From a virus: DNA of 39,082 bases. The position numbers and the translations under genes are program-made. The stretch's first letter is position 1; every line of letters begins with the position of its first letter. The notes beneath the pieces were generated by a model, which was not told the origin of the DNA, searched no databases, and worked only from the letters and a program-made list of their open reading frames with translations. The DNA lies in IMG/VR virus record IMGVR_UViG_3300028392_000011, positions 1 through 39,082 of that record; one strand, written 5' to 3'. This document shows, in pieces, positions 28,278 to 33,757 of the stretch.

Positions 28278-30131
28278 CTATCCGTATATTTCATTCCATT
28301 GATCAGCAAATGCTTCATCAAGATTAATAGTAATACGACTATTCGTTTGAGACTTAGTAGCCCACCTGTTGTAAGCAAACTTACTGGACTGTGACGATTG
28401 TTGCATCAGTTCACGAACGCGAATAATAGCAAACCATAAAGCCATCACACAGTCAGTTTTACCTTTAGTGTCAGGTTTCCACGTCAACAACTGTTGTGTT
28501 AAAGCCTTCAACCCTTCAGAACCCTCCAGTGATGGGAACTCTAAAACGTTATTAGATTGATGTCTTTCATCACGAGTAGAGCCAAGGAAGCTAGCCATAG
28601 ATGCTACACCAAAACTTACATCCCATTTGTTTTTGCCAGTGAAGTGAGAATTCAATGTCGTGCCCCAGGAAGATAACCAGTTACGCAGGTCATCATCTAA
28701 AGCATAAGCTTTCTGATGGGCATTGATTTCGATACGCAGTTCTTGCGGACGATATCTTTCAACCCACTCTTCAATCAATGTACGGATCTTCATAGGATTA
28801 GGGTCAACCATATTGACACAATCAAGTACATAAATTTTACCATCAGACCTATTATAGGTAACGATGACGGCTGCAGTGTTACCTGTCATAGCGGGGTCAA
28901 GACCCATTATAGTATAGGCACCTTCAATATGTTTAGGGTGCCCTGGGGTTCCTGCCTTCAATGGCCCACGTTTACGCATCCCATTTGTGGAACCAGCTAT
29001 GCAAGTAGGTGAAAAGATAGAATCAGCCTGTACATCTTCTTGCTGATATACCATTGCCCAGACAGAGGAAGCTACTTCACTGCGGCGAGTAAAAAGAGCC
29101 GGGCCATCCCATTTCTGGTACAAGCCATCCTCATTAGGATCATCCTTGTCCGTTTCAGGACGATCCGTAAGAGGCCATAAGGTTTTCCAATTGGCTGGTT
29201 TCTCATCAAACTCCAACACAGCAGGTTGGGAGAAATAGGTGAAGGGGGAAACCCCACCAGACCATTGGGCACCATCTCGTATCATTTTATATAAGTCGAT
29301 GGGCGCGACACGGGTTCCTACAACAAGTAGTTTTCCGTGCCGCCCCAGTCGTGTGATAACGTCCTTCTGAAGCCATTCAAGTTGCTTCTGCCACTCGTGG
29401 GCATTTGCGTTCATCACAACATCATCAAGAATAATCAGGTCAGCACGAGCACCATAAATTTGGGAACCAAACCCTAAAGCCTGCACAGTGGGGTCAGGTG
29501 CACCCGTTTCACGCCCAGCACCCAAGTAAATCATATCAGCAGTCCACGTAGCAGAGTCAGCCTTATAGCCACCCTGTGGCCCAAAAGCTACTTGCATCTT
29601 TGTCCAGTTAGGATGAGACAACCGAGACTTGATAGCAGCCAAAAATTTTCTTGCCATACCTTGAGTCTTAGAGACAACAATGATACGCACATTAGGATCA
29701 GTAGCAATACGGTAGGTCACATAATTAATGGTAATGACTGTGGACTTGGCGTGCTCAGGGGGAACATTAATAAGAACCCGGTTAGTGGCATTGGGTTCAT
29801 AAATCATATTAGGATGCAACCAGCGAGGCTCTTTACCCTCAATTAGGTCAACCCAATCAAGATGATGATCAAACAACTGGGTATCTAGGAACTGGGTACA
29901 GAAGTCCTCAAAAGAAATATTTTTTAAATCAGCAAGGTCAGTATGAACACCCTTGCCATCAAGACGAGCTTTATCGGTAGCCAACTTAAAGTCAGGGTCC
30001 GTAAATTGCCACTGCCGGAAAGCCGATTCAGAACGCCCTACAGCATCCATAGCCATCTTAATGGTTGCACCATTAGCCAGTAAACCAAGAACTTGAGCCT
30101 GAGCTTGTTCCTTAGGAACATTAGGTTTCAC
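28278..30131 (-). CDS. terL: Terminase large subunit
   Basis: 617 residues, the packaging motor. The ATPase has a Walker A-like loop PPEHAKST (residues 124-131) and Walker B ARADLIILDD (228-237). The nuclease has Asp in MGLDPAMTGNTAAV, acidic residues in ELRIEINAH and GKTDCVMALWFA near the end. The first 50 residues look like a helix-turn-helix (GATIKMAMDAVGRSESAFRQ), as in small terminase subunits; no separate small-subunit gene is seen, so DNA recognition may be fused to the motor. It begins with GTG 30131 after AGGGG. It is the first gene of the late block, 234 bases after the promoter candidate's -10 box. Confidence 0.92.
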   Translation of the reverse strand: MKPNVPKEQAQAQVLGLLANGATIKMAMDAVGRSESAFRQWQFTDPDFKLATDKARLDGKGVHTDLADLKNISFEDFCTQFLDTQLFDHHLDWVDLIEGKEPRWLHPNMIYEPNATNRVLINVPPEHAKSTVITINYVTYRIATDPNVRIIVVSKTQGMARKFLAAIKSRLSHPNWTKMQVAFGPQGGYKADSATWTADMIYLGAGRETGAPDPTVQALGFGSQIYGARADLIILDDVVMNANAHEWQKQLEWLQKDVITRLGRHGKLLVVGTRVAPIDLYKMIRDGAQWSGGVSPFTYFSQPAVLEFDEKPANWKTLWPLTDRPETDKDDPNEDGLYQKWDGPALFTRRSEVASSVWAMVYQQEDVQADSIFSPTCIAGSTNGMRKRGPLKAGTPGHPKHIEGAYTIMGLDPAMTGNTAAVIVTYNRSDGKIYVLDCVNMVDPNPMKIRTLIEEWVERYRPQELRIEINAHQKAYALDDDLRNWLSSWGTTLNSHFTGKNKWDVSFGVASMASFLGSTRDERHQSNNVLEFPSLEGSEGLKALTQQLLTWKPDTKGKTDCVMALWFAIIRVRELMQQSSQSSKFAYNRWATKSQTNSRITINLDEAFADQWNEIYG

Positions 30132-30593: not shown

Positions 30594-30665
30594 ATGCGTC
30601 TATCTGCCTGCTGTTTGTGGGGGTGGGTTGAGCGTGTAAATAATTGGGGGGGTGTAGGTCGTTGA
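30594..30665 (+). CDS. Possible 23-residue leader peptide
   Basis: ATG 30594 follows AGAGGTGG and reads 23 residues starting MRLSACCLWGW before a TGA. The 5' part can be hidden: AGCAGGCA (30559-30566) pairs perfectly with TGCCTGCT (30605-30612), placing the start codon in the loop. The Trp- and Gly-rich reading could instead be chance. It is kept because a ribosome site and a stem-loop coincide. Confidence 0.3.
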   Translation: MRLSACCLWGWVERVNNWGGVGR

Positions 30666-30690
30666 CTCTCTTCTATGGTTCGTGTATTCT

Positions 30691-31060
30691 GAGACTTGCA
30701 AGGAAAGAAGTACGGAAGTGCCGACTCAGAGCCGGTGTGATTGAGGGAATCCAGAGTCTCCTAGACCACTAGGAGGGTGAACCGATTGAACGCCCGACAT
30801 AAATTGAGATCCGGCAAGGTGAAGACCGGCGAAAGCGTCGCCCCCTTCTTTACCCGCGAATAGTGCTGAGTGAGTCTCAGATAGCGGGAGGGCAAGCGTA
30901 GATGAGTAGTCGGTTAGGTTCCCTTAAGATTCTCTAATGAGTCTCCACCCTTTGAGGGTGAGGGATTGAGAAGGTCAGATAGTTAGAAGTCAGAACCGGT
31001 CGCCGGTGGTCTATCGCTCCTCATATAATCTTCTCACTCTCTTAGGGTGGTGATTCTAAG
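30691..31060 (+). ncRNA. Candidate large structured RNA
   Basis: About 370 bases with few long open frames and a dense series of perfect hairpins: CTCCTAG/CTAGGAG (30758-30775), GGCGA/TCGCC (30828-30842), CCCGC/GCGGG enclosing CTGAG/CTCAG (30853-30888), CACCCT/AGGGTG (30946-30960) nested in TCTC-AAT/ATT-GAGA (30931-30971), and ACCGG/CCGGT (30995-31007). GCCGG (30731) can pair long-range with CCGGC (30826), and GAGACT (30691) with AGTCTC (31085-31090) in the following tRNA-like part, closing the whole. Loops are short and purine-rich. It is purine-rich against AT-rich flanks. I cannot match it to tmRNA, RNase P or a group I intron by eye. Strand is inferred from the downstream elements. Confidence 0.5.
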
Positions 31061-31092
31061 GGGGGCTAGGGGTTCGATTCTCCTAGTCTCCA
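31041..31092 (+). ncRNA. tRNA-like minihelix 1
   Basis: A hairpin CTTAG/CTAAG (31041-31060, 10-base loop) is directly followed by a 12-bp helix, 31061-31072 with 31080-31091, capped by the 7-base loop TTCGATT (31073-31079). A single A (31092) and CGC follow. Twelve pairs (nine Watson-Crick, three G-U) equal the 7 + 5 pairs of a tRNA acceptor and T stem, and TTCGATT is the canonical T-loop. There is no D arm and no anticodon arm between the strands. RNase P, RNase Z and the CCA enzyme recognise this part of a tRNA, so the element could be cut or tailed by host enzymes. It lies 30 bases before the basic-protein gene. Confidence 0.65.
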
Positions 31093-31121
31093 CGCTAACT
31101 AGACGAACGATCTAGAGCAGA

Positions 31122-31439
31122 ATGGAATCTACTATGAGCGGAATCTATGCGGGCGGTTGGTACGTCACGACAAGGTCGGTTCGAGTGAGTTCTGATAAGT
31201 GGAGAACGAGCGATGAGGCTACGAGTAGGGTGAACGGCGTTACGCCGAAAGTTAAGCGCAAGTCTAAGCCTAAGTCTAAGCCTACCCGTAAGCGGGTTAA
31301 GGTGAAGAAGTCGCAAGTGCGGGGTGCTGTTGGTGCTGGTGTATTAACGGTGCGCGAGATTGAATTGCTGGCACGTCAAGAGAAGTATGCTGAGAAACAG
31401 AAGGCTGAACGTGTTAAGCAAGTGGGAGATTACCTGTAG
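31122..31439 (+). CDS. Very basic protein between two tRNA-like elements
   Basis: 105 residues from ATG 31122, or 101 from ATG 31134; neither has a good ribosome site. The centre is a dense run of Lys, Arg and Pro (TPKVKRKSKPKSKP, then TRKRVKVKKSQVRG) that would bind nucleic acid; the C-terminal 35 residues form a helix (GVLTVREIELLARQEKYAEK). No family recognised. It is flanked on both sides by tRNA-like helices, the second overlapping its stop codon, so an RNA-binding role is attractive but only inferred. Confidence 0.62.
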   Translation: MESTMSGIYAGGWYVTTRSVRVSSDKWRTSDEATSRVNGVTPKVKRKSKPKSKPTRKRVKVKKSQVRGAVGAGVLTVREIELLARQEKYAEKQKAERVKQVGDYL

Positions 31440-31491
31440 AATAGGTGGTCTAGTCTGGTGAGTGAGTGCGGTTCGATTCCGCACCTAGACA
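31431..31491 (+). ncRNA. tRNA-like minihelix 2
   Basis: TACCT/AGGTG (31431-31435 with 31443-31447; T-G closing pair, 7-base loop GTAGAAT) abuts a helix of GTCTAG/CTAGAC (31448-31453 with 31485-31490) and GTGCGG/CCGCAC (31466-31471 with 31479-31484), 12 Watson-Crick pairs in all, capped by TTCGATT (31472-31478) and followed by A (31491) and CGC. A 12-base bulge (31454-31465) stands where D and anticodon arms would be. Same plan as element 1, though the stems share no sequence, so pairing has been kept while bases changed. It overlaps the end of the basic-protein gene. Confidence 0.68.
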
Positions 31492-31528
31492 CGCAAGCTA
31501 AAAACTACTACTAGAGAAGGTGGTGAAT

Positions 31529-31720
31529 ATGTATTCACTAGATAGTGGCACTATGTGGGCGTTGATTATTGCGCTTTCATCTAGTGCGTTGGTGATGGTG
31601 TTGCAAGGTAGGCAGATCGGGAAACTATCGCGGGCGTTGGCTCGCAAGAATCGTGACTATGCTTATATGCAAAAGCATTACGACGTGTTAGAATCGGTAC
31701 GCATTAGTAACCAACTATAA
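31529..31720 (+). CDS. Small single-span membrane protein
   Basis: 63 residues starting MYSLDSGTMW at ATG 31529 (ribosome site AGAAGGTGG; GTG 31520 is less likely). One transmembrane helix (about residues 8-27, WALIIALSSSALVMVL), then a basic helix with coiled-coil character (GRQIGKLSRALARKNRDYAY). Orientation by the positive-inside rule puts the C-terminus in the cytoplasm. It precedes the amidoligase gene by 12 bases and is probably its partner in the same transcript. Function unknown; a membrane anchor or exclusion protein is possible. Confidence 0.62.
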   Translation: MYSLDSGTMWALIIALSSSALVMVLQGRQIGKLSRALARKNRDYAYMQKHYDVLESVRISNQL

Positions 31721-31732
31721 GAGGGGGTTAGT

Positions 31733-32941
31733 ATGGATATCGTAGAAGATACAATAATTCCGCAAGTTATTTGCGCTTATTGTGGCAATACGCAAGGTCA
31801 CATTGACGAGTGGGTTTCGTATCGTGACGGTTTTCTGTGTGACGATTGTGTAAGTTCGTGCGATTCGTGCTGCGAAATTGGCGTACGTGAAGAGATGACG
31901 TGGGCAAGCGACCAGATGTACTGTGAGTCGTGCGCTGATAGCCACCTCTTTTGGTGCGATCATTGCGCTACACATTATGACCACAACGTGGAAGAGATGG
32001 CTCACGCAGGCGGTAGTACTTACTGTGAAACGTGTCGAGATCGCAACCTAAGTTGGTGCGAGAGACACGACGAGTATGAGCACGACGGTGATCTATGCGA
32101 GCAAGAGGAGGACGAGGAAGAGGAAGAGAGTGTGATCAACTCATACTCTTACAAGCCTGACCCGATCTTCCAAGGTGTAGATAAACACGGCGTGTATTTA
32201 GGGTGGGAGTTAGAGACGGTTCCCAAAGCCAATAGGTCGTTCAATAAGAGGGCGTCCGCTAGGTTTGCTCACGAAAGTTTTGGCGGTCTAGCGTATCTCA
32301 AACAGGACGCTAGTATTAGTGAGGGGTTTGAGATAGTGACGCACCCGTTCGCCCATAATAAGATCAGAGAGTTCGATACTTATTGGGATACGATTGAGAC
32401 ACTACGTCGAGATCACTATATGAGATCGTGGGATACCGACAATTGCGGGTTCCATATTCATATCTCGCGTGATGGATTCTCTGGCGGTTCCCACTTGCAT
32501 AGGTTCTTACAACTTCTCTACGGCAACGCTGAGATGATGGCTAAGTGTGGCGGTCGTAAGTCCAATCATTACGCTGATTGGGCGGACGTGTGGCAGACGA
32601 ATGACTACGGTGTACCGCGTAGATCGTATGCTCAGAAGGTAAAGGGTCGCTACTCTACCCGTCACGCTGCGGTCAATACGAGCAACGAGCATACGATAGA
32701 ACTCCGGTTCTTTCGTGGCACTATGAATAAGTCTAGTATCTTGGCTCACTTAGATTTGGCTCACGCTTGTGTAGAATATACGCGTGACTTGAGATCGAAA
32801 GATGTTATAGACGGTATGCTCAAGTGGGATATGTTTATGCTATGGGTTGAAGAAAATAATGGTATCTACCCTGACTTGTATGTGAAGGGTAGTAAGGTAA
32901 GCGGTATAAATCTAAATAATCACGAGACGCAACAAGCATAA
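31733..32941 (+). CDS. Amidoligase (COOH-NH2 ligase) with N-terminal zinc modules
   Basis: 402 residues. Residues 10-125 hold a chain of Cys/His pairs (ICAYCG, LCDDC, CDSCCE, YCESC, WCDHC, YCETC, WCERH) forming several zinc knuckles, followed by an acidic linker (EQEEDEEEEES). The catalytic domain matches the Amidoligase_2 family of glutamine-synthetase-like ligases: GWELE (157-161), QDASISEGFE with Asp192 and Glu200, GFHIH (239-243) and ELRFFRG with Glu323/Arg325. Such enzymes use ATP to join a carboxylate to an amine or ammonia. The next gene supplies a glutamine amidotransferase, so ammonia may be the nucleophile. Substrate is unknown; the zinc modules may recruit a nucleic acid or protein. 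GAGGGGGTT ribosome site. Confidence 0.82.
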   Translation: MDIVEDTIIPQVICAYCGNTQGHIDEWVSYRDGFLCDDCVSSCDSCCEIGVREEMTWASDQMYCESCADSHLFWCDHCATHYDHNVEEMAHAGGSTYCETCRDRNLSWCERHDEYEHDGDLCEQEEDEEEEESVINSYSYKPDPIFQGVDKHGVYLGWELETVPKANRSFNKRASARFAHESFGGLAYLKQDASISEGFEIVTHPFAHNKIREFDTYWDTIETLRRDHYMRSWDTDNCGFHIHISRDGFSGGSHLHRFLQLLYGNAEMMAKCGGRKSNHYADWADVWQTNDYGVPRRSYAQKVKGRYSTRHAAVNTSNEHTIELRFFRGTMNKSSILAHLDLAHACVEYTRDLRSKDVIDGMLKWDMFMLWVEENNGIYPDLYVKGSKVSGINLNNHETQQA

Positions 32942-32950
32942 GGGGGACAG

Positions 32951-33757
32951 ATGTGTTTGCTGATAGTGTGTGAGCCTGGTCATCAGCCTACCATTGAGCA
33001 ATTGAAACGTGCTGCGTGTGCTAACCCGCACGGTTTCGGTTTCGCTATGGTGGCAGGGGATCAAATAATTCACAGGCGCGGTATGTCTGCTAACAAGATC
33101 AACGCAGAGTTCTTGCGCTTGCGAGCCGAGCATCCTAATGGGTGGGCTATCTGGCATAGCCGGTATGCTACTCACGGTGTTAAGAATGAATCTAATTGCC
33201 ACCCGTACCCTATGGGTGATGATGGACTCACGTATCTTGCACATAATGGGATACTCGATCAGCCTATACCGGCTGGTGATAAACGATCAGACTCTAGGGT
33301 GTTTGCTGAGGATACGTTGCCTGCTATGGGCGGGATAGCTGCCCTCAATAACGATACGGTGCGGGCTATAGTAAGTGAGTGGGCTGGTAGTAGTAAGATC
33401 GCTATCCTCACACTCGACCCTGTCGCTGACTATCAAGTGATTATTCTTAACGAGAATCTTGGTACGTGGGATGATGGCGTGTGGTATTCCAATGGTAGTC
33501 ACAAGCCTGCGGTGGTGTATGATTACCCCTTGTATAGTGTGCCGTCCAAGTCTCCGACTCTTGTCGAAGTGTTCGATGACCCGATAGAGTTCGAGTGTCC
33601 CGAGTGCTTGTCTCCTCAATCGTATGATGACTGTATGAGTTGGTGTTCTCAATGCGGAATATGTTTCGAGTGCCAAGATCACGTGAGTGCTTGCCTATGT
33701 TGGGCTCCTGGTGAGGAATCCTATAAGGCTCAAGCGCTCCGACTATATGCTTACTAA
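32951..33757 (+). CDS. Class II glutamine amidotransferase with C-terminal zinc ribbon
   Basis: 268 residues. The initiator Met is followed by Cys2, the N-terminal nucleophile of Ntn-type glutaminases. Conserved parts: HSRYATHG (69-76), the CHPYP loop (83-87), AHNGIL (97-102) and Ser-Asp-Ser at 113-115. It would release ammonia from glutamine for the adjacent amidoligase. The C-terminal 65 residues carry clustered cysteines (ECPECL, WCSQCGICFECQ, CLCW), a zinc-binding segment not usual in this family and matching the zinc-rich front of its partner. No synthetase domain is fused, so it must work with another protein. Ribosome site AGGGGG, nine bases after the amidoligase stop. Confidence 0.85.
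   Translation: MCLLIVCEPGHQPTIEQLKRAACANPHGFGFAMVAGDQIIHRRGMSANKINAEFLRLRAEHPNGWAIWHSRYATHGVKNESNCHPYPMGDDGLTYLAHNGILDQPIPAGDKRSDSRVFAEDTLPAMGGIAALNNDTVRAIVSEWAGSSKIAILTLDPVADYQVIILNENLGTWDDGVWYSNGSHKPAVVYDYPLYSVPSKSPTLVEVFDDPIEFECPECLSPQSYDDCMSWCSQCGICFECQDHVSACLCWAPGEESYKAQALRLYAY

Follow-up and report, generated by a model that had tools for sequence, protein, structure and literature searches.

A family of phages carries, between its genes, short elements whose transcripts are predicted to fold into a miniature tRNA. Judged from sequence, the usual plan is an acceptor stem stacked on a T arm, 11–12 pairs in all, so that only the upper half of a tRNA is represented, and alignment of the copies argues strongly that this structure is kept by compensatory change while the sequence varies. 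We give about an even chance to the reading that host RNase P cleaves at these mini-tRNAs and so sets the ends of viral mRNAs.

Two mini-tRNAs in a freshwater phage genome

The window analysed here is the whole of a 39,082-base viral record (IMG/VR, IMGVR_UViG_3300028392_000011). Its genes for WhiB, an amidoligase and GATase-like proteins mark the virus as actinophage-like. The features that concern us are the following.

28278–30131, minus strand: terminase large subunit, the anchor for finding relatives
30662–30690, plus strand: promoter-like site TTGACT-17-TATTCT from a consensus scan, candidate start of a rightward transcript
30691–31040, plus strand: non-coding leader from the candidate promoter to element 1, without a long plus-strand ORF
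31041–31060, plus strand: hairpin abutting element 1; folds, not conserved among relatives
31061–31095, plus strand: mini-tRNA element 1, with a 12-bp acceptor and T helix, TTCGATT loop, A73 and CGC, and no insert
31099–31115, plus strand: small hairpin CTAGA-CGAACGA-TCTAG downstream of element 1, from sequence reading; relatives also have hairpin-forming sequence at this place
31122–31439, plus strand: gene for a small basic protein of 105 aa; an ATG at 31134 is also possible
31431–31447, plus strand: hairpin abutting element 2 and spanning the stop codon at 31437–31439; folds, not conserved
31448–31494, plus strand: mini-tRNA element 2, with 6 bp, a 12-nt insert, 6 bp, TTCGATT loop, A73 and CGC
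31520–31720, plus strand: next gene, for a small membrane-type protein, with the ATG at 31529 the likely start; looks by eye like the ORF that follows the element in L009

The original prediction had placed two tRNA mimics of one plan here, on either side of a gene for a basic protein, and sequence, folding and shuffles bear out their positions, the 12 pairs, and the TTCGATT, A and CGC of each. In element 1 the 5′ strand consists of GGGGGCT (31061–31067) and AGGGG (31068–31072), followed by the loop (31073–31079), CTCCT and AGTCTCC (31080–31091), A at 31092 and CGC at 31093–31095. It folds as one 12-bp hairpin with 12 of 12 pairs, G-U included, at −20.6 kcal/mol (z −4.9). Element 2 has, as predicted, 12 perfect Watson-Crick pairs and a 12-base bulge that element 1 lacks: GTCTAG (31448–31453), the bulge (31454–31465), GTGCGG (31466–31471), the loop (31472–31478), CCGCAC and CTAGAC (31479–31490), A at 31491 and CGC. 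Folded alone it is weaker than element 1 (z −1.9). A pattern search of the window (12 pairs, a TTCRANY loop, G53-C61, A73 and a bulge of at most 20) returned exactly these two elements, and nothing in 200 dinucleotide shuffles.

The gene between them does encode a small basic protein, which matches no Pfam or PHROG family but resembles by eye the proteins at the same place in L006, L041 and L065. The promoter-like site at 30662–30690 is, taken alone, not above chance (shuffle mean 1.5). The 350-base leader behind it is hairpin-rich and contains AGTCTCC twice, a motif also found once in element 1; as a candidate conserved RNA it was rejected, no relative being found by blastn. Farther to the right (31733–33757) lie an amidoligase-like gene, distantly homologous to genes of mycobacteriophages, Marvin among them, and then a class-II glutamine amidotransferase-like gene.

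A family maintained by compensatory change

Relatives were collected through terminase homologues as three sets of environmental sequences. The terminase query succeeded among viral contigs where the neighbouring amidoligase gave no relatives; a DNA search of a phage collection with the element region, and a search of all viral contigs with a 25-mer of element 2, found no match. The window terminase shares 73% identity with its counterparts in OX376640 and OX376641. These are the cultured Planktophila phages E7 and F5 (PMC10202952), whose host is LanE-43, and from this kinship the host of the window virus is probably a member of Ca. Nanopelagicales. The terminase query returned nothing from genome contigs, and host sequences were therefore located with the acI 16S probe AcI-852 (PMC3699509).

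A first pattern scan of the relatives showed the same structure in differing sequences. A hand alignment of fourteen examples, made with padding, had 98% of cells paired and 53 double changes, where shuffles gave 14, and a covariance model built from them, R1, detected copies that the pattern scan had missed. Over 82 related sources R1 gave 71 matches, 66 of them distinct. Element 2 scores 40.7 bits (E 4.7e-7 in the window), being itself among the 14 examples. Pairing fills 95.6% of the cells of the R1 alignment and 66.7% in its shuffles; as an alignment fitted to the model favours pairing, we took the double changes and the slid controls as decisive. There are 197 double-changed cells, against 50 in shuffles and at most 45 in slid controls, and both-sided changes occur in 10 of 11 pairs, as expected of the claimed acceptor and T-arm plan with compensating changes.

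Every one of the 71 matches is upstream of the terminase and on the opposite strand, at a distance of 0.9–2.3 kb among the copies measured. Instead of the two-copy pair first described there is a family, of which a genome usually has one to three members: R1 finds one or two in whole records, and three occur at some loci (L055, L142 and L163). The elements are present in both E7 and F5; G1 falls at minus-strand positions 1434 and 2208 of L083. A degenerate pattern from another subfamily hit 24 contigs, and in the 13 stretches containing a terminase it belongs to this family. Among Streptomyces-phage relatives (598 kb) R1 gave two weak matches and no mini element was recognised; Streptomyces phage Immanuel3 has 22 tRNAs and no mini element. 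In Immanuel3 (L084, 41600–44400) ordinary GC-rich hairpins after stop codons separate leftward genes, at the place that the mini-tRNAs take in the freshwater phages. So far, then, the family is restricted to one phage family of Ca. Nanopelagicales, where nearly all relatives with enough sequence carry it, yet standard tRNA and Rfam searches miss it.

Anatomy of the mini-tRNA

Position 1 is G in all 66 distinct sequences, and pair 1 is G-C or G-U. The acceptor stem has 6–7 bp, usually 7, and the T stem about 4–6 bp, with a 7-nt loop of consensus TTCRANN. The loop drifts (TTCATGA, TGCAATT and AGCGAGA are variants): roughly one distinct sequence in four lacks A58, and the loop of L016 is unlike a T loop. 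From the T loop to A73 the 3′ strand measures 12 nt in 53/66 and 11 nt in 12/66. A73 is present in 61/66 and C74 in 66/66; CCA is encoded in no copy, and position 75 is never C. On the other side, A(−1) precedes the element in 54/66.

An insert of about 0–20 nt replaces the D and anticodon arms and forms a mini-hairpin in most copies, pairing of at least 4 bp being found in 78% against 38% of shuffles. Since most relatives carry this insert or mini-hairpin, the insert-less element 1 is a minority form, shared with L039, L066, L067 and L071. The 5-bp hairpin on the 5′ side, originally taken as part of the design, folds at both window elements but occurs in 27% of the 66 relatives against 16% of shuffles, and we no longer count it as such.

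Position between genes

An ORF of at least 45 codons stops within 25 nt before G1 in 65 of the 71 copies, mostly 6–12 nt before it, and the next usable start codon lies mostly 28–75 nt past C74. The proteins encoded upstream and downstream differ between phages; the element is thus not bound to one gene and looks like punctuation. The flanking genes probably share one transcript. About 15 copies have a promoter-like site of the TTGAC type beginning 4–20 nt past the element, a consensus match counted without shuffle control, and an ATG often comes soon after it. In L006, L019, L151, L171 and L152 the hairpin behind the element has TTGACT as its 3′ arm, and these letters are also the −35 box of the promoter-like site that comes next. 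A palindrome, TCCGATAATCGGA, occurs at several intergenic places in L009 (3885–4415, minus strand), where it is repressor-operator-like, and one copy of it is the hairpin after the mini-tRNA.

The promoter-like sites imply that the element often ends a transcription unit. A mini-tRNA might then act as a cap, staying on the upstream mRNA without any RNase P cut and blocking 3′-exonucleases, possibly with CCA added. Plant RNA viruses have tRNA-like 3′ ends, and here the start of the element just past the stop codon, the presence of a CCA-adding enzyme in the hosts and the greater weight of a stable stem over an exact loop would all suit such a cap. For this purpose, however, a plain GC hairpin would suffice, with no need of the 12-nt ruler, the T-loop consensus or the conserved G1, A73 and C74, and we regard a cap as rather unlikely.

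Most copies are followed within a few nt by a further hairpin (mean z −2.1), and the elements are found where the first genes of one block lie. A transcription signal could also be built from two hairpins in succession, which counts against RNase P cleavage: either an intrinsic terminator lacking a U-tract, or an antitermination RNA of the put or nut kind with two stem-loops at the start of an early operon. The put sites of HK022 consist of two adjacent stem-loops, although we know of no likeness between put and tRNA. A terminator scan found none at the elements: the stem is not followed by a U-run, as the GC hairpin of an intrinsic terminator would be, and the 3′ flank reads ACG or ACT. The copies sit after genes, often ahead of a new promoter-like site, and a transcription signal leaves the T-loop consensus and the 12-nt ruler unexplained. 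We consider it distinctly unlikely.

Several further explanations were considered because the core resembles a tRNA T arm and the helix begins near a stop codon, and together they are exceedingly improbable. As a phage attachment site the element should share a long identity with the 3′ part of a host tRNA, and the longest found against 30 fetched LanE-43 tRNA loci was 14 nt. A relic of a tRNA gene is contradicted by the acceptor 5′ strand adjoining the T arm and by the compensatory changes, a stimulator of stop-codon read-through by the frames after the stop codon, which are not kept open (median 19 codons), and chance by the empty shuffles.

Host genomes and tRNA-processing enzymes

R1 gave weak matches only in nine Nanopelagicales genomes, LanE-43 included; the best match in each of six genomes, and all three in LanE-43, fall on true tRNAs. 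The hosts encode a type A RNase P RNA, an actinobacterial CCA-adding enzyme and RNase III. RNase Z over the curated cut-off was found in none of six host genomes (L086, L087, L094–L097), which makes RNase Z cleavage unlikely. Matches to the RNase Z superfamily domain fall mainly in ORFs of 560 aa and of 730–760 aa, probably of RNase J and ComEC types, and these streamlined bacteria may leave the 3′ maturation of tRNAs to exonucleases. The earlier suggestion that the elements are cutting sites fits the stop-start placement, while the part given to RNase Z has become doubtful.

CCA is encoded in 9 of 31 LanE-43 tRNA genes read, and the 3′ context of the CCA-less genes is that of the phage elements. 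In LanE-43 (L108–L137) nearly all CCA-less tRNA genes have the discriminator and C74 but no C75. A(−1) is present at only 8 of the 31 host genes and is not a rule there. In the host RNase P RNA, L15 falls short of its consensus by about 6 nt. One should therefore not take the usual RCCA contact for granted, and pairing of L15 with A73-C74 was rejected as the reason for the conserved C74 because part of L15 is missing.

The elements contain the acceptor and T-arm part that tRNA enzymes bind, and they are phage-only, being absent from the nine host genomes. A freed mini-tRNA of 35–55 nt might therefore be a small RNA or decoy, acting on RNase P, the CCA-adding enzyme, EF-Tu or tRNA-targeting defences. 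The strict stop-start placement and the one to three copies per genome are better suited to punctuation, and most acceptor pairs vary freely, so that no aminoacylation identity is evident. A decoy is accordingly, in our judgement, quite improbable.

Comparison with known RNAs

No Rfam family exceeded its gathering score in the window and nine relatives, and the open-access literature searched on tRNA-like RNAs and RNase P describes no such phage element, in keeping with the original statement that none of this plan was known. As for canonical tRNAs, the 7-bp acceptor stem and 5-bp T stem with a TTCRANN loop are there, but D and anticodon arms with an anticodon are not, and ARAGORN, proposed as a check, found no tRNA gene in the window. 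A tmRNA likewise has a tRNA-like domain of acceptor and T arm without an anticodon arm. The mini-tRNA differs in having neither tag frame nor pseudoknots, in its length of 35–55 nt and in lying between genes, and the Rfam tmRNA model gives element 1 only 7.4 bits (E 1.8) against a gathering score of 47.

Nearest in working principle are the t-elements of plant mitochondria. There, as in mitochondrial tRNA punctuation, intergenic tRNA-like structures set mRNA ends through tRNA-processing enzymes. The phage elements share the tRNA-like structure between genes and, probably, the common transcript; they differ in belonging to a phage, in depending on a bacterial RNase P if on any, in consisting of acceptor and T arm only and in that no host RNase Z was found. 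Nearest in shape are the pAT hairpins, in which, as in element 1, acceptor and T stem are stacked in one hairpin. These are laboratory constructs with a 3′ CCA, whereas the mini-tRNA is natural, lacks CCA and mostly has an insert.

Host nucleases act on other phage RNAs. In T7 the host RNase III cuts at sites between early genes, with another enzyme, another structure and no tRNA mimicry. The C4 antisense RNA of phages P1 and P7 is matured by host RNase P (a reference on it is listed in PMC11143913). C4 is an antisense regulator, and the mini-tRNA has no match to the Rfam C4 family.

A possible role for RNase P

The acceptor and T stem are the part of pre-tRNA that bacterial RNase P recognises, and hairpins of the pAT type are its standard model substrates. 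One of them, pATSerUG, was used in this way in PMC12710915. If RNase P acts on the phage transcript, the mini-tRNA would fold as a substrate of the host enzyme and be cut before G1. The upstream mRNA would thereby gain a 3′ end 6–12 nt past its stop codon, and the downstream message would be separated, beginning with the mini-tRNA and, in most cases, a second hairpin. On its 3′ side the mini-tRNA would be trimmed by exonucleases, and perhaps tailed with CCA, rather than cut by RNase Z. In this way an early phage operon would be punctuated as if by tRNAs, with no real tRNA in it. Reasons for caution are that the loop drifts, that A(−1) is conserved and that L15 is reduced in the hosts, and where a promoter-like site follows the element cutting is not needed for expression of the next gene.

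Our fuller proposal, which we hold tentatively and at somewhat less than even probability, is that this phage family punctuates its early operon with purpose-built mini-tRNAs that recruit RNase P, an arrangement that evolved apart from that of mitochondria and uses the minimal acceptor and T-arm substrate. The carriers are phages of the dominant and most abundant freshwater actinobacteria, and with E7, F5 and their host LanE-43 in culture the system is directly testable. If RNase P does cut, the minimal substrate of this enzyme would have a natural counterpart in the mini-tRNA, and these phages would process their early operon with machinery borrowed from tRNA maturation.
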